A stretch of 64,000 nt of DNA from NCBI RefSeq assembly GCF_019320115.1, contig NC_089584.1, positions 54,742,852-54,806,851 on the forward strand, written 5' to 3'. The notes under the pieces were generated by a model. That model was not told where the DNA came from. It worked only from the letters and a program-made list of their open reading frames with translations, and ran no database searches. The position numbers and the translations under genes were made by a program. This DNA is from Miscanthus floridulus (Eukaryota > Streptophyta > Magnoliopsida > Poales > Poaceae). Below, one piece after another: positions 16,654 through 57,312 of the stretch (positions are counted from its first letter, which is position 1; the number at the start of each line of letters is the position of its first letter).

Positions 16654-16836
16654 ATGGATACCTCTAGGCCTCCACACTTTGACGGCACTAACTTAACCTA
16701 CTATAAAGCTAGAATGGTTTTTCACCTTGAGGTGGTAGATTTGGGTGTTTGGAGAGTCACTCATGACAGGATGAAACTCATTAAGAATCTCGATAAACCC
16801 ACAAAGAGTGAAGAAAAAAGAAATTCATTTCAACGC
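16654..16836 (+). pseudogene. Copia gag, N-terminal part (split by insertion)
   Basis: Starts at the ATG 80 bases after the LTR with MDTSRPPHFDGTNLTYYKAR. The P-x-F-D/N-G-x-N-Y/L-x-x-Y/W pattern is typical at the N-terminus of SIRE-type copia Gag. It forms the structural core of the virus-like particle in known members. The frame is cut at 16836 by the chromovirus. To continue in the frame used after 29962, a one-base shift is needed in the A-rich run near 16811-16820, so gag was already damaged or was damaged later. Confidence 0.8.
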
Positions 16837-19800
16837 TGTGGCAGAACCTCCTAAGAAATCGGGCCCACATGCACCTATCGTTGTCTTAACAGACCTCGGA
16901 TAGCGTACACGAGTTCCCAACAACTCAACAGGTCTGTCGGGTGTCCTCGGGAAACCCGAATCATCCACAATTCTCTTTTTAAACAGGATCCCAATCACAG
17001 TCATTGCAGATTACAACAGTTTATTCAAATATATACCAGAGTAAAAGATAGCGGAAGTCTTAAGATAACATAATTACAAACCAGTTGTTTTCAAACTTAC
17101 AATACCATAAGTGTTATACAACCATAGTGGCGGGATAATATTACATTAACTTTATTTATCAAACAAACTAGTGCCTTGTCCAAAGGCCATTCATTACTCC
17201 TCATCATCATCGTTGACTTCAAACACTGACATGCAGCAGGGACCAAAACAAGCCTGCGCATGCGACTCGCCTGCAACAAGGGTTAACAAACCCTGAGTAC
17301 AAAGGTACTCAACAAGACTAACCCGACGTAACGGGGTGTAATACTTTAGAGATGCAGGGATTTGGGGCAAGGTAAGGATGTAGCAAGATTCAAAAGTTCT
17401 TTGCCAAAAGCTTACTATCCTTCATTCTATTTTCAAGTTTACCACTAAGTTCTTTTAGTTCATTATCTCAACTAAATATACATTTCCCATATTCCATTCC
17501 TTCCCATTCCATTCTTTTTCTCATATTTTAGTAATTCACCAGTACTACATTGCTTCTGTAATGAATCGAGTCTCCATATCCGCGGAGCACCGGCAATTCG
17601 AATTGATTCAAGTCCCAGCTGGGGATTCCTTATCACACGACATATGTAGAACTAAATCTTGCATATATCAACCTTGCTATCGGATCCTCCTATACTAAGC
17701 CGTCTCCACGCCACCCGAGAGCACAGCACACCTCAAATCCGGCCACATTCCAGCCACGAGGGTACACGCTACTCCCGCCATCTCTCCACTCCCAGTGCGC
17801 GGGCATTCGTCTTAGTATCGGATTAGCCGAAGTAGGCTTACCGGAGTATGTGACCAGTACTACAAAGTGTCTCGTTCAGAAGATCCACAATGAGTGGCCT
17901 TTAAGTGACATAGTCGGTAACATTACCCAACGTTCAAGATAAGTCACCCGGCTAGTCTCTAATTCATTCCACATTCTTTCTTTCTTTGGCCAGTATGCCA
18001 TCTTTGTTTGTATCAAAACTTTTGCTTTGAAAGCCTATCATAAAGCATACTAAGCATTCTACGCCTTTGTAAATAAAAACATCTTCAAGGATGGTAACAA
18101 GTAACAAGGTAGGTAATGCATCAAGTAGGTAACATTTGAAGTAATTGACTTAATGCAGTAAGTAACATAAGTGATAAACTTTTCAAAGTAACAAGGTAAT
18201 GGCTTAATGCATAAACCGGGGCTTGCCTTCGTTGACGATTTCCGGTTCCGGATTAGTACCACAATTATCAAATCCCGTGACAACCGGGGATTCTTCCAGA
18301 ACTTGCTCAACTAGAATAGTTTCGTTCTCGGGTTCTACACGAAATAATAACATATGCTTTAACATGATGATAATGTAAACATGATGCTTTCACGGTACAT
18401 GAAATGTAGAAACACCCGCAACGATTTTATTTCGCGGTACAGTTGCAAGCCAACAAAAGCAACCTGTAAGCCTATCATTAAGAAACACACACTTGACTTG
18501 ACCTAATGGATCTTGGAACCCTACTAGTCACAAAACATGACCAAAACAAGATCCAACACTAATCAACACTTAGGGTTTCGACGAGTTAACTTATTAATGA
18601 CTTTTGTTATCACATGAAATGTCATTAAGATTTACTAATTACAGATTAGATATTAGTTCAAATACTAATTAAAGTTCTAAGGATCATTATAAGTTAATGA
18701 CCCAAGGTCAACAATCAAATCTAAAGTCAAACAAATCTTAATTGATTAAACATTGATTAAATGAATAATTAATTAAATACTTAAGTCTATATTAGGTATA
18801 AAATAAACTTTGTCCAATTAAGCTCAAATTTTTATGTAAGCTTCCTCATGATAAATTAGTGTACCAAAATAAATTTCATAATTTTTTGGAGTTATATAGT
18901 GACCTACAAAAATCATGGAAATTGCATTTTTCAATTAATGGACCAAATATTTGAACATTAAAAATTTATTCAAATTCCAAGTTTCAAATTTTTAAATCAT
19001 ACTAGAACATGTACAGAAGCTACACAAAAATTTTCAGAATTTTTGAATGTGTAAATAAATTCCTACAAAATTGCCAAATCTCTGCACTATTCAAAATCAG
19101 AAAATAATCAAGGCTCACTGTTCTTCTTCCTCAGCATCACTGACAGCCTGACCCCACGCGTCAGCGACAGCGAGCAAGGCACGGCGGCGCGGCCAGCTCC
19201 GGCCAGCAAAACGCGCCGGTGGTGACTCTCCGACGCTACGGATTGCTCCTACATGATCTTCTACTTCCTACGAATCGAACTCGGCTATCAGAACGGAATA
19301 AGGTGCACCGGAGGCACCTCCACACCGGGCATGGCGGGCGGAGCACGTCGGTGAACGGCGTAAACACGGTGATGGTACAGTAGGGACTGAAGCGAAGTGA
19401 TAAACACGTTCAGGAGCTTACTGCGATCACGATGGCGGACTCGGTGCAGCCGGAGATGGTCTGGAGCAGCCTGGCCACGGTGAGGCAGTCGCGGCGGAGC
19501 TCCGACCGGTCACGGGGAAGATGGGTTACGCCGGGCGATTTCGGCCAACACCAGCGACGTGAGTAAGTCGAGGAGGAGCGCAAGACCAATGCGATCACGT
19601 TGACGTAGCTGGGAACGACTGACGCGGCTCGACGAGACCAACGGCGAGCGGCGGAGCTATGCGGTGGCGGAGCAGAGCAGAGGGAAGAAATGGGAGCGAC
19701 GGCGACGACGGTGGCTATTTATAGCCCGGAAGGAGGCGTACGGTGTCGCCAACGCACGGGCGAACTCGCCACGGTGACAACGGCGTGTCACCGCGCGTGA

Positions 19801-20523
19801 AAGCGGCGAAGAAGGGCGGCGGCAAGCTGACTGCGTGTCGACGGCGGTGAGCAGTGAGGTGGAGGTGAAATTTTGAAAAATTTACAAAACTGCCATTGCG
19901 TCCATTTCTCAAATTACTCTCAAATCTTCTAAAGAAGTTGAAAATCTCCAAAAATGAAAGTTGCTCAACTTTTCAAGTACTACAACTTTGATTTAAGAAA
20001 CATTTTCAAATTCTACCTCCATTTTGAATTTCACATTTGGGGTACATTTAAAGATTTGAATCATTTCAAAATTACTCCAAATTTTGTATGTAAACTTGAA
20101 AAACTTTGAATACCAAAGTTGATCCTTATAAAATAATCTCCAACTTTGCTTTTTGCCTCAACCCCAAATTCCTCATGGATTTTGAATTAGTCAAAAGGGG
20201 CAAAAAGGACTTTTATAATTTGAATGTGAATTCAAATTTGATTTGTCTTCCTTTTACTTAGATTTTGATTTTTGACCAGTAACATGGCCCATTAGGGTTA
20301 TTTGAGTCAAATGACACATGGCCTCACATGAACACATGAAATTTGACCCTTGTGGTCATGATCTGTATTTAGGGTTTTTGAAACACATCACATGAAATAA
20401 CAACATTATGAAATAAACCTTATTTAGTGAATGCACTCAAAACTTTATACTATATGAATGCTTTGCAATGCACATGATGACATGTCACATTTTAGTATTA
20501 GGTCAAACACCAGAGGTGTTACA
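16837..20523 (-). repeat. Chromovirus 3' LTR
   Basis: 3' LTR relative to the minus-strand element. Edges are tgtggcagaacc on the left and ggtgttaca on the right (TGTAACACC...GGTTCTGCCACA on the minus strand). Contains a minus-strand TATA box (complement of ctatttatag at 19715-19724) and the hairpin gagtacaaaggtactc at 17295-17310. Confidence 0.93.
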
Positions 20524-20692: not shown

Positions 20693-23600
20693 CTAGATAG
20701 TAGCGAAGAAGTCAGGAAAATTCTCTTCTAAGTAATCCTCGGACTCCCAAGTAGCTTCATCTTCAGTGTGTTGATTCCATTGTACTTTGTAGAACTTGAT
20801 CGTACGTCTCCGAGTGACTCGATCTTTCTGATCTAAGACTCTAATGGGGTACTCGGCATAAGTCAAATCAGGTTCTAGTTCTACATTACCAAAGTCGATT
20901 TCTTGGTCAGGTACTTGAAGACACTTCTTTAACTGAGATACATGAAAGATATCATGCACCGCTGACATGTGATCTGGTAGCTTGACGCGATAGGCGACTG
21001 GTCCACATCGTTGTTGGATCTGAAAAGGACCGACATAACGGGGCGCCAACTTTCCCCGAATCCCGAAACGATGAACTCCTTTCATCGGTGATACCTTGAG
21101 GTAGACATAATCTCCCACTTTGAATTCTAGCGGTCGCCTCCTCTTATCAGCATAGCTTTTCTGTCTGGATTGAGCTATCTTCATATTAGTTTGTATGAGT
21201 TTAACTTTCTCTTCAGCTTCCTTGACCACATCCGGTCCAAAGAACCAACGTTCTCCAGCTTCTGACCAGTTTAAAGGCGTTTGGCACCTGCGGCCATACA
21301 GTGCTTCGAACGGTGCCATTTTAATGCTCTCTTGATGGCTGTTGTTATATGAGAATTCAGCTAAGGGAAGGCATTCATCCCATTTAGTACCAAAGGAAAG
21401 AACACATGCTCTCAACATATCTTCAAGAATTTGATTTACTCTTTCAGTCTGTCCGTCTGTTTGCGGATGATAAGCAGAGCTACGGATAAGTTTAGTTCCT
21501 AAAGACTCATGTAAACTTTTCCAAAACTTGGATATGAACAATGACCCTCTATCAGAGACAATGGTCTTGGGTGCCCCATGCAGACTGAAAATTCTATCAA
21601 GGTAAAGCTTTGCATACTGTTCCGCTCGATATTTATCTTTGACTGGCAAGAAATGAGCTATTTTGGTTAATCGATCAACAATAACCCATATTGAATTGTA
21701 GCCTGCAGATGTCCTAGGCAACCCTACTATGAAGTCCATACAAATATCCTCCCACTTCCAAGATGGAACTGGTAAGGAATGTAATGGACCTGCAGTCTTC
21801 ATATGAACCGCTTTGACCCTCTGACAAATATCACACTTGGCTACATATTGAGCTATTTCTATTTTCATTTTGGTCCACCAATATCTCTTCCTCAGATCAT
21901 GATACATTTTGTTGCTACCCGGATGAATGGAGTATCTTGTAGAATGAGCTTCATCAAGAATCTGCTTGCGCAGCTCTGGATTTTTGGGTACTACCAACCT
22001 ATCCTTGAACCATACAACATCTGATTCATCAACCTTGAAACATGTTGGTCTTCCAGATCTGACTTTATCCTTAATATGGGCTATGCCCTTACTTTTCTGT
22101 TGAGCAGCAATGATCTGATCCTTGATAGTGGACTCAACTACAATATTGGACAGGGAACCTTGTTCTATGATTTGTAAATCCAGATGCTCCATCTCTTGAC
22201 ACAATGTTTGCTGCATCGGTTCCACAATTAGGCAATGACAATGACTCTTGCGACTCAGGGCATCGGCAACTACATTAGCCTTACCCGGATGATAATGCAC
22301 TTCTAAGTCATAATCTTTAATAAGTTCTAACCATCTCCTTTGCCTCATATTCAGTTCTGACTGAGTGAAGATGTATTTTAGACTCTTGTGATCCGTATAG
22401 ATATGACATATATTGCCCAATAAATAATGTCGCCAAATCTTGAGTGAATGGACAACAGCAGCTAATTCAAGATCATGGGTGGGGTAATGTTCTTCATGCT
22501 TCTTGAGTTGTCTGGAAGCATATGCTATGACTCTGCCTTCTTGCATAAGAACACAGCCAATACCAATTCCGGATGCATCACAATAGATATCAAATGGTCT
22601 CTCGATATCAGGTTGTGCTAATACTGGTGCAGTTGTCAACAACTTCTTCAATGTCTGAAAGGCCTCTTCACATTCGGTTGACCATACAAACTTTGTTTGA
22701 TTTTTCAACAGTCCAGTAATTGGCTTCGCAATTCTGGAGAAGTCAGGGATAAACCGACGGTAATACCCTGCCAACCCCAGGAAGCTACGAACTTGATGAA
22801 CAGTGGTAGGTGCCTTCCAATTAAGGACTTCTTCTACTTTGCTCGGATCAACAGCTACACCTTCAGCAGATAGCACATGACCCAGAAATTGTACTTCCTC
22901 CAGCCAAAATGCACATTTGCTGAACTTGGCATATAGTTGGTGATCTCTTAATCTTTGTAGAACAATACGGAGATGTTCCGCATGTTCCTCTTTGCTCTTA
23001 GAGTAGATAAGAATGTCATCAATAAACACCACGACAAACTTATCCAACTCCGGCATGAAAACTGAGTTCATCAGGTACATGAAATGAGCCGGGGCATTGG
23101 TCAGCCCAAAAGACATGACTAGATACTCATATAGTCCATATCGAGTAGTAAATGCTGTCTTTGGCACATCTTCACGTCTGATCTTAATCTGGTGGTAGCC
23201 TGATCTTAAGTCTATCTTTGAGAATACCTTAGCTCCCGCAAGTTGATCAAAAAGTAAATCGATTCGGGGTAAGGGATATTTGTTCTTGATGGTGACTTCA
23301 TTTAGTGGCCTATAGTCAACACATAACCTTAAGGTTTGGTCCTTCTTCTTCACGAAAATAGCAGGACATCCCCAAGGTGATGAACTGGGTTGAATGAAAC
23401 CCTTATCTAACAACTCTTGTAGTTGCATTTTTAATTCTGCTAATTCTTTCGGTGGCATCCTATATGCTCTTCTGGACACTGGTGCTGTCCCTAGTTTCAG
23501 ATCAATTCTGAACTCTACGTCTCGGTCTGGTGGCAGACCAGGCAGGTCATTGGGAAAGACATCCGTAAACTCACATACCACTGAGATTCCCTCGGCTCCT

Positions 23601-25186: not shown

Positions 25187-25345
25187 CTGTTAGAGAAACA
25201 CATTTACTTACATTATTCTTTATTGAAAGCTTTTAAAAGGTTGCATACTACAAAGGGTTCTTATTTAGATTACATGTCTTGCATCCCACAAGACAACCCT
25301 GGTTTTCTAGGAAAGCAGTAAAGGAACTACTTCTACTCCAAGCTT

Positions 25346-25649
25346 TCAGTCTTCGTCATCCGTGCCCGTATCGGACGAAACTTCATCTTCATCTGAGAAG
25401 TACACTAACTCCTCAGGATCCTCCTCCTCTTCTTCATTCTCGACTTCCCCTGGAGCTACAATCATTTCTTCATCGGTAACTTCACCATCCCCATGAGGAG
25501 GATGAAGTTGAGCATACAGCATATGGACATTCTCGTGAAGAATGGCATTGTCCATCTCCAGGTCCTCTACGTAGAACTCCAACTCATTGACGCGTTCATT
25601 GGCCGCATCTTCTCGTGTCCAGGCTTCATTCCGCAGCTCCAATGGTCAT
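25346..25649 (-). CDS. Coiled-coil and acidic segment in overlapping frame
   Basis: Opens in a different minus-strand frame just after a TGA at 25647-25649 and has no ATG of its own before the coding-like part. It therefore depends on the preceding H3-tail-like frame by frameshift, or on a one-base indel having split a single gene. It encodes a heptad-like helix (RVNELEFYVEDLEMDNAILH) and a very acidic C-terminus (NEEEEEDPEELVYFSDEDE), ending near 25346. The combined layout would be a basic H3-like tail, coiled coil and acidic tail. No classic slippery heptamer is visible in the short overlap. Confidence 0.55.
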
Positions 25650-25883
25650 GGTGATGCCCCTTTGCATTTCCGCCAGCTCTTCTCGGTCTTTGGCATGAGC
25701 TCGACGAAGAGTGTTGAGCTCCTTGTTAAGGTTCTCGACGTTGGCGGGGTTGCTCGAAGATCCTTCCTCTCCTAGGTTCTTGGAACTTCCTTCACCAAGC
25801 TCGTGATTTCTTGGTGCCAATTGGTGACGAGGGACTCCATGAGGTCCTGTGGACTTGCGTGCGGTTTTCTTGGTCTTTGCCAT
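25626..25883 (-). CDS. Upstream small ORF with histone H3 tail-like N-terminus
   Basis: 85 codons between the 5' LTR and gag, starting at the first ATG (25883-25881) after the primer site. The start reads MAKTKKTARKSTGPHGVPRH and then QLAPR. Set against the histone H3 tail, the residues at positions 1, 3, 4 and 6-12 are identical, including K4 and the A-R-K-S context of K9. After one extra residue, P-R-x-Q-L-A is also shared. A Ser/Gly-rich linker and a Lys/Glu/Leu heptad-like segment follow, suggesting a coiled coil. The frame ends with TGA at 25626-25628, but the overlapping frame downstream continues in the same style. No known retrotransposon protein of this type comes to mind. It could be a chromatin-mimicking accessory protein or coincidence with a Lys/Arg-rich nuclear signal. 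Confidence 0.7.
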   Translation of the reverse strand: MAKTKKTARKSTGPHGVPRHQLAPRNHELGEGSSKNLGEEGSSSNPANVENLNKELNTLRRAHAKDREELAEMQRGITMTIGAAE

Positions 25884-26256
25884 AGCCTGTACGATTTAAG
25901 GTAGGACTATAAGAATAGCTTGAGGATAATGGAGGTTAGCAAGAATGGGATTGACATTACTTACCCAACCACTATTAAGGGGAATTATTATGCAATGTGC
26001 TCAAGCATGATGCATGAATCGATCTTACGAATCTAAGTACACAAGATTATATAATCATAAGTACTAGATTTTTTTAATACATAGGACAAACCTAAGCATA
26101 TTATCCGCCACAAACTTTTCAAATAAGTTAGGATTGAGTCTAGATCAAAGGTAAGAAGAAAGAAATTGAACTTTCAAAATATCATGTTTACTTTCCTTGA
26201 TCCAAATCATTTTGAAGGTTTTCCAAAGTAACCTACAATGATCTTAGATGGGAACT
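25884..26256 (-). other. Chromovirus leader
   Basis: Non-coding, AT-rich leader between the primer site and the first ATG of the H3-tail-like frame. RNA packaging signals are expected here, but none could be assigned. Confidence 0.5.
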
Positions 26257-26268
26257 GCTCTGATACCA
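26257..26268 (-). promoter_or_regulatory. Primer binding site (initiator Met tRNA), chromovirus
   Basis: Minus-strand TGGTATCAGAGC lies two bases inside the 5' LTR edge, the complement of plant initiator Met tRNA. Confidence 0.93.
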
Positions 26269-26270
26269 GC

Positions 26271-29200
26271 TGTGGCAGAACCTCCTAAGAAATCGGGCCC
26301 ACATGCACCTATCGTTGTCTTAACAGACCTCGGATAGCGTACACGAGTTCCCAACAACTCAACAGGTCTGTCGGGTGTCCTCGGGAAACCCGAATCATCC
26401 ACAATTCTCTTTTAAACAGGATCCCAATCACAGTCATTGCAGATTACAACAGTTTATTCAAATATATACCAGAGTAAAAGATAGCGGAAGTCTTAAGATA
26501 ACATAATTACAAACCAGTTGTTTTCAAACTTACAATACCATAAGTGTTATACAACCATAGTAGGCGGGATAATATTACATTAACTTTATTTATCAAACAA
26601 ACTAGTGCCTTGTCCAAAGGCCATTCATTACTCCTCATCATCATCGTTGACTTCAAACACTGACATGCAGCAGGGACCAAAACAAGCCTGCGCATGCGAC
26701 TCGCCTGCAACAAGGGTTAACAAACCCTGAGTACAAAGGTACTCAACAAGACTAACCCGACGTAACGGGGTGTAATACTTTAGAGATGCAGGGATTTGGG
26801 GCAAGGTAAGGATGTAGCAAGATTCAAAAGTTCTTTGCCAAAAGCTTACTATCCTTCATTCTATTTTCAAGTTTACCACTAAGTTCTTTTAGTTCATTAT
26901 CTCAACTAAATATACATTTCCCATATTCCATTCCTTCCCATTCCATTCTTTTTCTCATATTTTAGTAATTCACCAGTACTACATTGCTTCTGTAATGAAT
27001 CGAGTCTCCATATCCGCGGAGCACCGGCAATTCGAATTGATTCAAGTCCCAGCTGGGGATTCCTTATCACACGACATATGTAGAACTAATCTTGCATATA
27101 TCAACCTTGCTATCGGATCCTCCTATACTAAGCCGTCTCCACGCCACCCGAGAGCACAGCACACCTCAAATCCGGCCACATTCCAGCCACGAGGGTACAC
27201 GCTACTCCCGCCATCTCTCCACTCCCAGTGCGCGGGCATTCGTCTTAGTATCGGATTAGCCGAAGTAGGCTTACCGGAGTATGTGACCAGTACTACAAAG
27301 TGTCTCGTTCAGAAGATCCACAATGAGTGGCCTTTAAGTGACATAGTCGGTAACATTACCCAACGTTCAAGATAAGTCACCCGGCTAGTCTCTAATTCAT
27401 TCCACATTCTTTCTTTCTTTGGCCAGTATGCCATCTTTGTTTGTATCAAAACTTTTGCTTTGAAAGCCTATCATAAAGCATACTAAGCATTCTACGCCTT
27501 TGTAAATAAAAACATCTTCAAGGATGGTAACAAGTAACAAGGTAGGTAATGCATCAAGTAGGTAACATTTGAAGTAATCGACTTAATGCAAGTAAGTAAC
27601 ATAAGTGATAAACTTTTCAAAGTAACAAGGTAATGGCTTAATGCATAAACCGGGGCTTGCCTTCGTTGACGATTTCCGGTTCCGGATTAGTACCACAATT
27701 ATCAAATCCCGTGACAACCGGGGATTCTTCCAGAACTTGCTCAACTAGAATAGTTTCGTTCTCGGGTTCTACACGAAATAATAACATATGCTTTAACATG
27801 ATGATAATGTAAACATGATGCTTTCACGGTACATGAAATGTAGAAACACCCGCAACGATTTTATTTCGCGGTACAGTTGCAAGCCAACAAAAGCAACCTG
27901 TAAGCCTATCATTAAGAAACACACACTTGACTTGACCTAATGGATCTTGGAACCCTACTAGTCACAAAACATGACCAAAACAAGATCCAACACTAATCAA
28001 CACTTAGGGTTTCGACGAGTTAACTTATTAATGACTTTTGTTATCACATGAAATGTCATTAAGATTTACTAATTACAGATTAGATATTAGTTCAAATACT
28101 AATTAAAGTTCTAAGGATCATTATAAGTTAATGACCCAAGGTCAACAATCAAATCTAAAGTCAAACAAATCTTAATTGATTAAACATTGATTAAATGAAT
28201 AATTAATTAAATACTTAAGTCTATATTAGGTATAAAATAAACTTTGTCCAATTAAGCTCAAATTTTTATGTAAGCTTCCTCATGATAAATTAGTGTACCA
28301 AAATAAATTTCATAATTTTTTGGAGTTATATAGTGACCTACAAAAATCATGGAAATTGCATTTTTCAATTAATGGACCAAATATTTGAACATTAAAAATT
28401 TATTCAAATTCCAAGTTTCAAATTTTTAAATCATACTAGAACATGTACAGAAGCTACACAAAAATTTTCAGAATTTTTGAATGTGTAAATAAATTCCTAC
28501 AAAATTGCCAAATCTCTGCACTATTCAAAATCAGAAAATAATCAAGGCTCACTGTTCTTCTTCCTCAGCATCACTGACAGCCTGACCCCACGCGTCAGCG
28601 ACAGCGAGCAAGGCACGGCGGCGCGGCCAGCTCCGGCCAGCAAAACGCGCCGGTGGTGACTCTCCGACGCTACGGATTGCTCCTACATGATCTTCTACTT
28701 CCTACGAATCGAACTCGGCTATCAGAACGGAATAAGGTGCACCGGAGGCACCTCCACACCGGGCATGGCGGGCGGAGCACGTCGGTGAACGGCGTAAACA
28801 CGGTGATGGTACAGTAGGGACTGAAGCGAAGTGATAAACACGTTCAGGAGCTTACTGCGATCACGATGGCGGACTCGGTGCAGCCGGAGATGGTCTGGAG
28901 CAGCCTGGCCACGGTGAGGCAGTCGCGGCGGAGCTCCGACCGGTCACGGGGAAGATGGGTTACGCCGGGCGATTCCGGCCAACACCAGCGACGTGAGTAA
29001 GTCGAGGAGGAGCGCAAGACCAATGCGATCACGTTGACGTAGCTGGGAACGACTGACGCGGCTCGACGAGACCAACGGCGAGCGGCGGAGCTATGCGGTG
29101 GCGGAGCAGAGCAGAGGGAAGAAATGGGAGCGACGGCGACGACGGTGGCTATTTATAGCCCGGAAGGAGGCGTACGGTGTCGCCAACGCACGGGCGAACT

Positions 29201-29957
29201 CGCCACGGTGACAACGGCGTGTCACCGCGCGTGAAAGCGGCGAAGAAGGGCGGCGGCAAGCTGACTGCGTGTCGACGGCGGTGAGCAGTGAGGTGGAGGT
29301 GAAATTTTGAAAAATTTACAAAACTGCCATTGCGTCCATTTCTCAAATTACTCTCAAATCTTCTAAAGAAGTTGAAAATCTCCAAAAATGAAAGTTGCTC
29401 AACTTTTCAAGTACTACAACTTTGATTTAAGAAACATTTTCAAATTCTACCTCCATTTTGAATTTCACATTTGGGGTACATTTAAAGATTTGAATCATTT
29501 CAAAATTACTCCAAATTTTGTATGTAAACTTGAAAAACTTTGAATACCAAAGTTGATCCTTATAAAATAATCTCCAACTTTGCTTTTTGCCTCAACCCCA
29601 AATTCCTCATGGATTTTGAATTAGTCAAAAGGGGCAAAAAGGACTTTTATAATTTGAATGTGAATTCAAATTTGATTTGTCTTCCTTTTACTTAGATTTT
29701 GATTTTTGACCAGTAACATGGCCCATTAGGGTTATTTGAGTCAAATGACACATGGCCTCACATGAACACATGAAATTTGACCCTTGTGGTCATGATCTGT
29801 ATTTAGGGTTTTTGAAACACATCACATGAAATAACAACATTATGAAATAAACCTTATTTAGTGAATGCACTCAAAACTTTATACTATATGAATGCTTTGC
29901 AATGCACATGATGACATGTCACATTTTAGTATTAGGTCAAACACCAGAGGTGTTACA
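26271..29957 (-). repeat. Chromovirus 5' LTR
   Basis: 5' LTR, same length as its partner (3687 bp). The minus-strand promoter TATA box is at 29149-29158, so U3 is about 800-840 bp and R plus U5 about 2.85 kb. The hairpin gagtacaaaggtactc is at 26729-26744. Short open frames inside this LTR are identical in the other LTR and are not supported as genes. Confidence 0.93.
29149..29158 (-). promoter_or_regulatory. TATA box of chromovirus 5' LTR
   Basis: Plus-strand ctatttatag reads CTATAAATAG on the minus strand, a consensus plant TATA box. It would start transcription near 29120, reading toward gag-pol. Confidence 0.65.
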
Positions 29958-29962
29958 AACGC

Positions 29963-31735
29963 TAGAGCTAAAAATTGCATGTTTGAATCTTTTAGCATGG
30001 ATGTGTTTAACCAAGTGTTCACTTTAAATACGGCACATAAAATTTGGTTAAAACTCCAAGAGCTCCATGACGGCACAACTAATGTCCGTGAGCAAAAACA
30101 TTGTCTAGCTAAATAAAATTATGATTCCTTTAAACTGAATGATGATGAGCTTGTTTGTGATATATATTCTCGTTTGAATCTAATTATCAGTGAGCTCTAT
30201 TCAATAGGATTAATGAAGCTAGATGATGCGGACATCGTGAGGAAGATCATCTCTATGCTACCACAAAAGAAATATGCAAGCATCATCACCATGCTTCACA
30301 ACATGGAGGACTTGAGCACCATGACCCCGGCCATAGTTATTGGCAAGATAGTGGCATTTGAAATGTCATGCAAGATAGGTCAAGAAGAAGCCTCTTCATC
30401 AAGCAAAGGCAAAGCTCTCATATGTAGTGAGAAAAAGAAGATGATGGGCAAGCAAGTTGAGACAAGCTCAAGCTCAAGCTCCTCAAGTGAAGATGAAGAA
30501 GAAGATGAGGATGAGGATGATGAAGAATCAAGTGATGATGATCAATCTTCCTCCTCCACCTCCAATCTTGATGAAGAATCTATAAAGCTTATCAACAAGG
30601 TGGAGAAGATGATCCAAAAACTCAATGTCAAGGGTGTGCCCATCCAAATTCAAGATTTCATCTTCACCAATCAAAGAAATGAGCAAAGAAAGAAAGAATG
30701 CTATGGATGCGGCGAGTTGGGGCACTTTGTGGAAGTTTGTCCAAACAAGCCCACACCCAAGACAAAGAAGAAGGCGTGCAAGGACAGAGACCTCACATCA
30801 ATAAGGTCATGGGATGATTCTTCAAGTGAAGAAGAAGGCCATCATAAGAGGTGAGGCCACAAGCACTCATCATCAAGCTCTTCTCGTATGGGCTTTGTGG
30901 CATGAGGTAATGAAAGCTCATCCTCTAGTGAGAGTGAGAGTGATGATGAAATGCCTTCTCTCAATGAACTTGTGCACAAAAATCTTAAATATGTTAAAGC
31001 TTGCACTAGCCAACAAAAGAAGCTAAAAATGTTGCAAGAAAAGCTAGATAGTTCACAAGAATAATATAAAACCTTGCTTGAACAATATGAGACATTTGCT
31101 AATCTTAATATGGAGCTATCTACTAAAATTGAGCAGTTTGAGACTAGTGCAAACACAAATAATTGCACAATCAATGATGAGCAACTTGTAAAGAAAAATG
31201 AAAAATTAAAGGAAAAGTTAGCTAGCTCACAAGTTGCTTATAAAAGTTTGCTCACTAAAATGGAAACCATGTGCAAACATTATGATGAGCTAACTAATAA
31301 AGTTGCAAATCTTGAAGCCATCGGTATAACCCCTACCGAGGCACCTAAAAAGAAAGGTTCAATCTTTGACATGCCTAAAAAGGATGCCTCTACTTCTTGT
31401 AATGATTTATGTTTAGACTCACCCTTGTGCAACCAAGTTTGTGTTGAGAAAGTTGTTGTAGAAACATGCACACAAGAGGTCGTAATGGAAAATGAGTAAC
31501 TCAAGCAAGAAGTGGCTCGCCTCACTAAGGACTTGACTCAAGTGAAAGGCGAGATAGAGCAAGCCCAACTTCATTAAGATAACACCGTCAAGGGAGTGAA
31601 GAAGCTTGATGAAGGACAAACCGTGGTTTGCTACGTATGCGACAAAGAAGGCCCCAAGTCCTATGAGTGCAAGGTGAAGAATGGGGGAGGAGCTCCCCTT
31701 GTTTCTGGTTTCCCTATAAGTACTTCGGTTCACTA
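29963..31735 (+). pseudogene. Copia gag, C-terminal part with zinc knuckles and coiled coil
   Basis: Resumes right after the aacgc duplication with FESFSMDVFNQVFTLNTAHK and then runs, past one TAA near 30114, to 30854. This part holds a Ser/Asp/Glu-rich linker (about 30460-30560) and a CCHC knuckle, CYGCGELGHFVEVC, near 30700. After a frame change, a Lys/Glu/Leu-rich coiled-coil stretch runs to 31499. It continues past further stops to a second, degraded knuckle-like motif, CYVCDKEGPKSYEC, near 31640. Gag packages element RNA. The long C-terminal extension is a feature of the SIRE-type lineage. No pol follows. Confidence 0.8.
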
Positions 31736-42125: not shown

Positions 42126-43950
42126 CCAGGGTGGTAGAAGAATCCACCGAGCCTAGGAATGAAGATGCGTGGTTCCAGGGTAGATTAGTTACCTTGGGAT
42201 GCTGTACCTGTAGTAGTAGTGCTTTTCATCATTGTCCTCTGGAATTGTACTCTTGCCATTGTTGTCATCCGTAGTTGTTGAGATCATCCGCCAGTAGGGA
42301 AGGTGAATGATGTGTTGTGAATGGGAGACTGGATGCCTGTATGATGTACCCATATAAGACCGTTGGAACATGCATTTTATTTATTTTGCTGTGTTTATTG
42401 CGTTCATCTACCCTAAGTTTCTTGAGACATGCTTAGAGTTTTCTAGGGCGATATTAAGCGGGTTACAAGAGAAGTTGCCATTCAGATACCAACCGTGATT
42501 GGATAACATAGGACACTGTATCGACTAATTGTGGATGTCCCAGCAGAACACTTGAATCTCTTTAAATCAAATCTGCCATTGGATTTGAATTCCTTGTCCC
42601 TTGTTGTGAAGGGAACCCTGGCTATTTGAATCTTCCTTTGCAATACCCTCTTACTCTGTGGTCTATGACCCCACTGCTATCATGGCGTGTAAGTTGGTAA
42701 TAGTTGCCTGGTTAAAAGCTTATGGTGCTGCGACAAAACTGAGGGCTCCCTGTGGAATAGCTGCCACATGGTGACGTTGCTCGGCACACACTGGTATTGA
42801 GGTTGTTGACCAAGCACCTTTACCAAGTTGCGCTGCCATACCGCTTTTTCTACAAAATATTTTTCTTGGAAATATTCGGGTGTTCAAACGGGAAATCCAC
42901 AATGGGTTGATGAAATAGTGTTCTCTCAAAGTAAATAAGAGGAGGTGGTTTTGGAGGAAGAAAGTATGACATGGTCTCAGTCTACATGAAAGCCGGATGT
43001 GGTCGAGTAAAGGAAAGAAAAAGAAGAGTAGTAAGGAAAGTTAGCCTCGGGTAGTCGGGAGTGGATGTCATGTCCCAAGCCCTGTGTTTAGTTGACCGTG
43101 CTGGGTCATTTCATTGTGTGCCCTGCGAACGCTATCTATATTGGGCCCTTATCTTCCTGTTCTAGCGTGGCCACGGCATTGTGCCGCACTCATCGTCCTT
43201 GTGCACTGTGCGCTTTTCCTTTTCCTGGCATCTGGTTGGTTCTTGACTCTCATGCCTCGTCCCTTGTACCAGACCCCCCTTCCCCTTCTCTTTTCTCCTT
43301 TTGGGAACACGGCTGCCCGCACGCCTGCCTCGTCGAGCGGACCCCCTCTCCTCTCCTTTATTTCCCCCTCTGCCGCTCACGTAGGAAGCGCACCATGTCC
43401 GACCTTATCTCCACAGCATGAACCGTCTATGCATCCCACCCCCACCGCATCCGCTTCCGGTGTGTTGCGCCCCACCTTCGTTCGTATCTATAAGAAACCC
43501 TTGGTCCTTTCTCTTCTTCTTCATCCCCATTCCCCTCGCATTCGGAGCCAAGCTACGAAATCTAGTCACCATTGTGGAGCTAGGTCCGTCAGTCTGAGGT
43601 GATGGTGTAATCTGAGAAGAAGAAAGGATCTAGTTCGTCAAAGAAGTTCAAGTTCCCTTGGGTAGTTGAGCCTTATGATTCACAATGTTTGACTTCTCAA
43701 TCGACTGTTTCTGGATCTATTGGACCTACGCCATGTTTTGGATACACATTATCTTGTGGTTTCTCCATTGTCCTCGCCTATCTCGACTTCTGGATTAAGT
43801 CTCGGTTGTATTAGGTTGCTCTTAACCATGTATCTCTAAATCTCCATGTGGTTTAGTATTCGAAGTTGTGTAATCTTTCGTGTAATCTCTAATCTACATA
43901 ATGTAATCGCGTTTTCCCCTCTTCTTGTTCTTGCTTCGAATATCAGGACG
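42126..43950 (+). other. LARD internal non-coding region
   Basis: Between the decayed ORF and the polypurine tract. AT-rich to 43080, then a C-rich stretch (43090-43600) with no supported gene. The open frame across 43114-43602 follows base composition rather than any family. Confidence 0.5.
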
Positions 43951-56600: not shown

Positions 56601-57312
56601 ATTGCTCGGTCCATTGAACGGATGCAAACGCCCGGTCTAGGTGTTCCAGAGTTGGTCGTTCCCGGCCGCTAGACCAGGTGTAGAGGCGGCCATTTAGATG
56701 TAGCTCGTCGAGGTGTAGGTCGTCAATCACAGTCCGGAAACGGCGCATGAGGCCGTGATGCAGCCTGCCGTTGTTCTTGTTAGTGGCCTTGTATATGAGG
56801 TTGAAGTCGCCGACAACAAGCCACGGCCCCTGACACGCGCTCGCCATGGCCCGCAGCTCCATCAGGAATTCTGGCTTGTCCTCCCTGTTCGCCGGCCCAT
56901 AGACAGTGGTGAGCCACCACGGTTCACCCATACTGTGCAACGGCTTGAGATGGATCGTGACCGAGAATCGCCGGACGCCTATATCAAATGCATCCCAAAG
57001 ATCACGACGCCACGCAACAACAGCGCCACCGGCCACGCCAGTAGCAAGGAGAAAGGAGTAGTCGAAGCCTTGGCCTACAGTTTCATTGTTCAAGCTTGCA
57101 TCATACGCCGCAATCTTGGATTCTTGCAGGCAAACAACAGAAGCACGCTGTTGTGCTACTACATCACATACAGCAGTGTGACACGCCCTGGAGTTCAGGC
57201 CCCGCATGTTCCACACAAGAAGATGGTTGTTACTCATATCGTTACTAGTTTGGCGACCTGCGTGCCGGCGAACATTACTGCGTCGGTGGTGAGTACTCCC
57301 CGGGGTTGCCAT
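53689..57312 (-). pseudogene. LINE ORF2: endonuclease-reverse transcriptase, two stops
   Basis: A single minus-strand frame from ATG 57312 to stop 53689, about 1207 codons, broken only by stops at 55612-55614 and 54469-54471. The N-terminal apurinic-like endonuclease has WNMRGLNS, CLQESK, VVGDFNLI and SDHAPLLL. Reverse transcriptase has RPISLIHSIGKLFAK before the first stop, then IKIDLAKAFDTVAW, GLRQGDPLSPFLF and the catalytic YADDLVLF. After the second stop come the zf-RVT region (PPKVKIFFWLALHRRLWTA) and Cys/His motif CVLCSQEPETADHLFAACVF. This enzyme nicks target DNA and primes reverse transcription. With only two stops and no frameshift it is a fairly young inactive copy. Confidence 0.92.

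Follow-up and report, generated by a model that had tools for sequence, protein, structure and literature searches.

A survey by Steinbauerova et al. 2011 (Genetica) reportedly found that part of the extra open reading frames (ORFs) of Poaceae chromoviruses are partially similar to histone H3. These ORFs reportedly lie upstream of gag and are in part H3-like, as is the frame analyzed here, which we call ORF0 and which lies in a window of 64,000 nucleotides (the whole stretch of DNA analyzed). Both the 5' extra ORFs of grass elements and their partial similarity to H3 are already known, and our ORF0 is a member of this known kind. The H3 statement of the 2011 survey was not found in the passages of the literature citing it that we searched, nor in the accessible parts of a review.

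An ORF0 has also been described in Retrosat2, RIRE3 and RIRE8 and in their maize and sorghum homologues (Gao et al. 2012, PMC3485330). Judged by the description in the available passages of that paper, these grass elements resemble the one in the window in that ORF0 precedes gag-pol and the LTRs are at least 3 kb long, and their ORF0 is likewise much less conserved than gag-pol. Unlike the H3-like reading given here, the authors suggest in these passages that ORF0 encodes hydrolytic enzymes, and the word "histone" was not found in the text of PMC3485330. According to the accessible parts of PMC11728184, the 5' aORF of Tekay elements in sunflower and Poaceae encodes a long helix together with extended disordered regions, as is predicted for ORF0 here. 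The sunflower aORF is about 400 aa long and does not resemble its Poaceae counterparts; histones were not found to be mentioned in these parts. Extra ORFs are described as well in the available excerpts of PMC6317226 and PMC7264820.

ORF0 belongs to a young Tekay-type chromovirus

ORF0 lies in a complete element on the minus strand, with 3.7-kb LTRs, a target-site duplication and an open gag-pol (Table 1). The LTR pair shows 2 mismatches and 4 gap bases over the 3692 columns of an alignment that overshoots the LTR ends by a few bases. With a substitution rate of 1.3e-8 per site and year, these mismatches date the insertion to about 20,000 years ago, in agreement with the initial annotation, which had called the element young. 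The primer binding site, TGGTATCAGAGC, is of the initiator-Met type. The gag-pol frame encodes gag, protease, RT, RNase H and integrase domains, and a Ty3/gypsy gag-pol with a chromodomain after the integrase is the arrangement of the Tekay/Del clade; likewise, a sense ORF between the 5' LTR and gag that is kept among copies is what characterizes the ORF0 of grass chromoviruses, and the frame here is such an ORF. It represents the extra ORF found 5' of gag-pol in a grass chromovirus of the Tekay/Del type. Adjoining the insertion, a 226-aa ORF at 30174-30854 (+) resembles the gag of a different retroelement, as it contains runs of acidic residues and Ser (Ser/Asp/Glu) and a stretch like a CCHC zinc knuckle.

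Table 1. Positions in the window of the chromovirus, its ORF0 and the associated sites
Feature	Position	Strand	Basis
5' LTR	26271..29957	-	LTR-LTR alignment
3' LTR	16837..20523	-	LTR-LTR alignment
Target-site duplication, 5 bases	copy 1 29958..29962, copy 2 16832-16836	.	element ends
Primer binding site TGGTATCAGAGC	26257..26268	-	follows the LTR
Donor-like site GG/GTAAGTAA in leader	25963..25964	-	30/31 copies
Acceptor-like AG, three bases before ORF0 start	25887..25888	-	AG/GCTATGG in 31/31 copies
ORF0 frame, 85 aa + stop, truncated copy	25626..25883	-	comparison with 69 copies
H3-like block, residues 1-25	25809..25883	-	H3 alignment, PDB searches, conservation
Lys-10 codon, matches H3 K9	25854..25856	-	Lys in 105/108 relatives reaching far enough
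ORF0 remainder (helix end, acidic end), open in other frame	25346..25642	-	ORF list; tblastn
Acceptor-like AG (TTTCTCTAACAG) directly before gag start	25187..25188	-	TTTCTCTAACAG/ATG in 21/31 copies
gag-pol, single open frame, 1497 aa	20693..25186	-	ORF list + Pfam domains
Chromodomain, end of integrase, type II Tekay-like	20708..20821	-	Pfam Chromo

A search of the 2.68-Gb assembly returned 5893 candidates, 150 of which were scored, and all 150 matched. We compared 70 same-genome ORF0 loci (L001-L070, where L001 is the window's own), 69 of which have a recognizable start. On the 60-kb contig G000:C2259, the ORF0 copies L005-L007 lie at 43858, 49922 and 55986, exactly 6064 bases apart, and a fourth copy, L008, lies at 57124 in the opposite direction; the spacing reflects either tandem repetition or an error of assembly.

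The initial annotation placed the frame between the 5' LTR and gag, and its coordinates are right; the frame reads on the minus strand from 25883 to 25626 and starts MAKTKKTARKSTGPHGVPRHQLAPR. The length of ORF0 is 175-192 aa in 54 of the 69 same-genome copies and shorter in the other 15. The copy in the window carries a frameshift and diverges from the others after residue 80, and tblastn with relatives switches frame within its later half, which is open in another frame. The long ORF0 in those 54 copies rules out that the 85-residue frame is a complete small gene. This truncated copy may not yield a working protein; intact copies are present among the same-genome loci. In 7 of the 15 short copies, we found a single-base stop change at Trp-88 (5 copies) or Arg-90 (2 copies), common to the independent-looking loci L010, L028, L029, L030, L051 and L068, L069, and due to either recurrent deamination or inheritance.

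Splice-like sites recur in the leader and before both frames, as counted in 31 copies from 30 loci (Table 1). There are 8 ATGs between the LTR end and ORF0, and another 26 between the ORF0 and gag starts; therefore, simple scanning to gag is unlikely. This arrangement suggests that both frames may be expressed by alternative splicing, a model that leaves unaccounted for the 7 ATGs located upstream of the donor.

The start of ORF0 resembles the histone H3 tail

As the initial annotation had claimed, ten of twelve residues are identical to the H3 tail, namely over ORF0 residues 2-13, and the P-R-x-Q-L-A stretch matches as well, with a small offset after the first block. The alignment score of ORF0 against H3 1-25 is 74, compared with 29 for the best other ORF among the 128 ATG-started ORFs of 60 or more aa in the window (ORF0 included), and with a maximum of 54 when its residues were shuffled 20,000 times. 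When the window's ORF0 was searched against the PDB using phmmer, 87 matches were returned at E-values up to 10, with a best E-value of 0.036; the best 60 of these 87 are all H3-type histones or H3 peptides, including one Cse4 and a few H3/CENP-A chimeras. A profile built from 22 relatives reached a best E-value of 0.0003, and the best 60 of its 147 PDB matches at E-values up to 1 were again H3-type, with one Cse4. The resemblance to H3 exceeds chance. A coincidental likeness in a meaningless frame is scarcely credible: the match is short, its single-sequence E-value is modest and the window copy is frameshifted, but no shuffle came near the real score, most copies have the long ORF0, relatives appear in three overlapping searches, and the block is retained between subfamilies (see below). 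We rejected a chance match on the basis of the shuffle test, the long copies and this retention. The resemblance is confined to the tail, in that H3 continues with a histone fold and ORF0 is predicted to continue with a long helix instead; no histone match was found in a Pfam scan of the ORF0 relatives and the window.

The block around lysine 9 is retained between subfamilies

The three overlapping searches gave 174, 1390 and 67 ORF0 relatives. The latter two were run without the tail, using as queries residues 40-134 of P0066 (search 1; the best 120 of its 1390 relatives were used) and residues 80-147 of P0013 (search 2; 67 relatives). Related elements carry the frame. An exact TARKSTG is present within 60 residues in 42 of the 118 proteins that are new among the best 120 of search 1, and absent in 76, most of which differ from it at one or two residues or start later. 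We scored individual residues by anchoring on the downstream H-Q-L-A, for which 90 of the 118 proteins from search 1 and 18 of 60 from search 2 are long enough. The equivalent of K9 is Lys in 105 of these 108 relatives (87/90 and 18/18), and that of S10 is Ser in equally many (87/90 and 18/18). The equivalent of A7 is Ala in 70/90 and 17/18, and that of R8 is Arg in 68/90 and 17/18, with Cys or His as the usual replacement; since the R8 codon is CGC in the window, this loss fits the decay of a methylated CpG codon. The initial annotation had both K4 and the K9 context kept. The K9 context is indeed kept, and K4 only in part: its equivalent is Lys in 18/18 relatives of the window's subfamily, but Arg in 15/16 and Ser in 1/16 distant rows, which rules out K4 mimicry as a trait of all subfamilies. 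In the viral_contigs and genome_contigs collections the patterns matched, but a relative of ORF0 was not confirmed, and in the plasmids collection no ORF0 match was found.

In an alignment of 40 hand-picked proteins (34 of the distant type, 2 intermediate and 4 of the window type), TARKSTG is 0.82 identical between the window and distant types and the 12 residues that follow it are 0.80 identical, compared with 0.18 for residues 2-6, 0.22 for the linker, and 0.30 and 0.34 for the helix. Hence the block TARKSTG...PRHQLAPR is about 80% identical between subfamilies, and the other segments 18-34%. Within the distant type alone the block does not exceed the rest of the protein in conservation (0.84 in TARKSTG, 0.85-0.92 in later segments), which we read as dead copies decaying. 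A second alignment comprised 23 rows, 17 of the window type and 6 others, the latter picked by hand and mostly with an undecayed tail; in it, residues 7-13 score 0.94 and residues 14-25 score 0.84, against 0.15-0.42 for the other segments; the top 19-residue stretch begins at residue 7 (0.88), and the best one outside the block at residue 115 (0.63). Residues 115-133, around LHENVHxLYAQLHP at the predicted helix end, thus form another conserved patch, though a weaker one. Within the block, the mean in this alignment is 0.95 for the 12 positions identical to H3 and 0.76 for the other 7, the non-H3 residues G16, V17, H20 and R25 being kept nearly as well as the H3-like ones. On the other hand, residues 2, 3, 5 and 6 differ between the types, with Lys and Arg swapping freely at residues 3 and 5, and R2, K4 and Q5 are not common to them.

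Among 18 full-length relatives of the window type, pairwise identity is 0.88-0.90 in residues 2-25, compared with 0.79-0.80 in residues 26-79. We also counted variants in the 70 same-genome loci, which were selected as the best protein matches, a bias against amino-acid changes. Of the variants present in at least two copies, 3 change the amino acid and 8 are silent over residues 2-25; over residues 26-81 the corresponding counts are 8 and 16, and the per-site ratios are about 0.13 and 0.15, respectively. Those seen once number 5 and 9, and 10 and 10, with ratios of about 0.19 and 0.29. Within the window's subfamily the whole ORF0 looks constrained, to a similar degree inside and outside the block, so that the tail is not set apart at this depth. 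These counts bear on the idea that it is the RNA (start-codon context, splicing or packaging) rather than the protein for which the block has been conserved. The block does lie at the 5' end of the internal region and adjoins the splice-like sites, but 8 silent against 3 amino-acid-changing variants in residues 2-25, even if selection by protein score lowers the latter number, are the pattern of a kept protein, and we therefore consider the RNA explanation highly improbable.

Since the K9 equivalent is Lys in nearly all tail-free relatives and the block far exceeds the other segments in identity between subfamilies, it looks selected, apparently as protein. According to the initial annotation, the match would be due to chance if related elements lacked the frame or if the H3-like residues varied freely and the flanking ones did not. 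For the K9 part neither is the case, because the relatives carry the frame, the K9 context is kept and the flanks change between subfamilies.

Predicted anatomy of the ORF0 protein and the chromodomain of the element

Structure models of a distant-type protein (P0193) and a window-type protein (P0246) both consist of one helix (residues 36-135 and 46-126, respectively), for most of which pLDDT exceeds 90, flanked by a tail and an end of low confidence, with pTM values of 0.40 and 0.34. The N-terminal tail is basic and the C-terminal end acidic by sequence. The ORF0 product is thus predicted to combine a disordered H3-like tail, a long helix and a disordered end, and the helix of 80-100 residues is probably a coiled coil. 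No known fold was found for the distant-type model, its one PDB match having an E-value of 8. In Pfam, ATG16 is hit by 36 of the 40 aligned relatives, and other helical families by a smaller number; we took these as generic coiled-coil matches, and the one with a known cut-off falls below it.

A basic tail might simply be a nuclear-import or nucleic-acid-binding signal, its H3 likeness having arisen incidentally, through descent from the end of an H3 gene or through convergence. The tail is indeed basic and predicted to be disordered, and the extra-ORF proteins of other Tekay elements have a predicted nuclear localization (PMC11728184, accessible parts). However, between subfamilies the K9 context is retained residue for residue, including its Ser, Thr and Gly, alongside the Lys/Arg exchange at residues 3 and 5, and a plain basic signal would not need such retention, which speaks against this explanation and makes it somewhat unlikely in our view.

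The C-terminal chromodomain named in the initial annotation was found by Pfam (Chromo, E-value 5.2e-5), at 23.5 bits just below the curated cut-off of 25.1. Of the Tekay chromodomain motifs (K/R)-X-(L/T)-R-X-(K/R) and EEXTWEXE (PMC3350952, available parts), the former is present as RVTRRR, and the latter appears by eye as DEATWESE, deviating at its first position. In the aromatic cage the Trp is kept, the third aromatic is replaced by His, and position 1 is ambiguous, as a Tyr can be aligned with HP1 given a gap. Readers of H3K9 methylation of the HP1/MAGGY type have three aromatic cage residues, unlike the chromodomain in the window; type II chromodomains lack the first and usually the third, and their partners are unknown (PMC3350952, available parts). 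The initial statement that chromodomains of this kind read H3K9 methylation is therefore not supported, at least one of the three cage aromatics being missing, and the step from the chromodomain to H3K9me reading is weak. For the same reason, binding of the tail to the element's own chromodomain via K9 methylation is unsupported. Such binding would link ORF0 to the integration complex; tail and chromodomain are encoded in one element, and a type II domain with partners yet to be named would leave room for it, but with His as the third cage residue methyl-lysine reading in the manner of HP1 is unlikely, and we regard this explanation as improbable.

Possible role of the H3-like tail

The reading that we favor, tentatively and at somewhat short of an even chance, is that a disordered tail imitating H3 around lysine 9, carried on a multimerizing helix, engages a host factor recognizing the H3 K9 site. 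Candidate partners would be a SUVH-type methyltransferase, a CMT3- or ADCP1-type reader, or a demethylase. The helix would multimerize the tail, and the multimerized tail could either counter silencing as a decoy or serve as a chromatin tether. This reading builds on the sequence, the anatomy and the retention of the block between subfamilies; from these we infer the nuclear action, the binding partner and the direction of effect. A more specific proposal, that a grass retrotransposon lineage has kept an H3 K9-site mimic on a multimerizing helix, across subfamilies with little else in common in the protein, as an anti-silencing factor serving as decoy or tether against the silencing loop of H3K9 methylation and CMT3, seems rather doubtful.

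If the tail does engage writers or readers of H3K9, abundant plant elements would carry their own means of disturbing heterochromatin or docking to it, and ORF0 would provide a natural peptide probe for the H3K9 machinery. Should the tail be a mere relic, it would nonetheless record how a retrotransposon acquired the end of an H3-like sequence. In addition, the roles of the ORF0 protein and of type II chromodomains become testable.

Comparison with known histone mimics

In a literature search conducted mostly on titles, we found no work that names a mimic of the K9 site in a plant element or tests for one. The closest parallels are the histone mimics of animal viruses, including H3K9 mimicry, to judge by the titles of PMC10208167 and PMC10611923; these mimics share with ORF0 a short H3-like stretch in a non-histone protein. 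ORF0 differs from them in that it belongs to a plant retrotransposon and the evidence for it comes from sequence; moreover, unlike in these animal-virus mimics, its H3-like stretch is located at the very N-terminus of the protein and is extended by P-R-x-Q-L-A.
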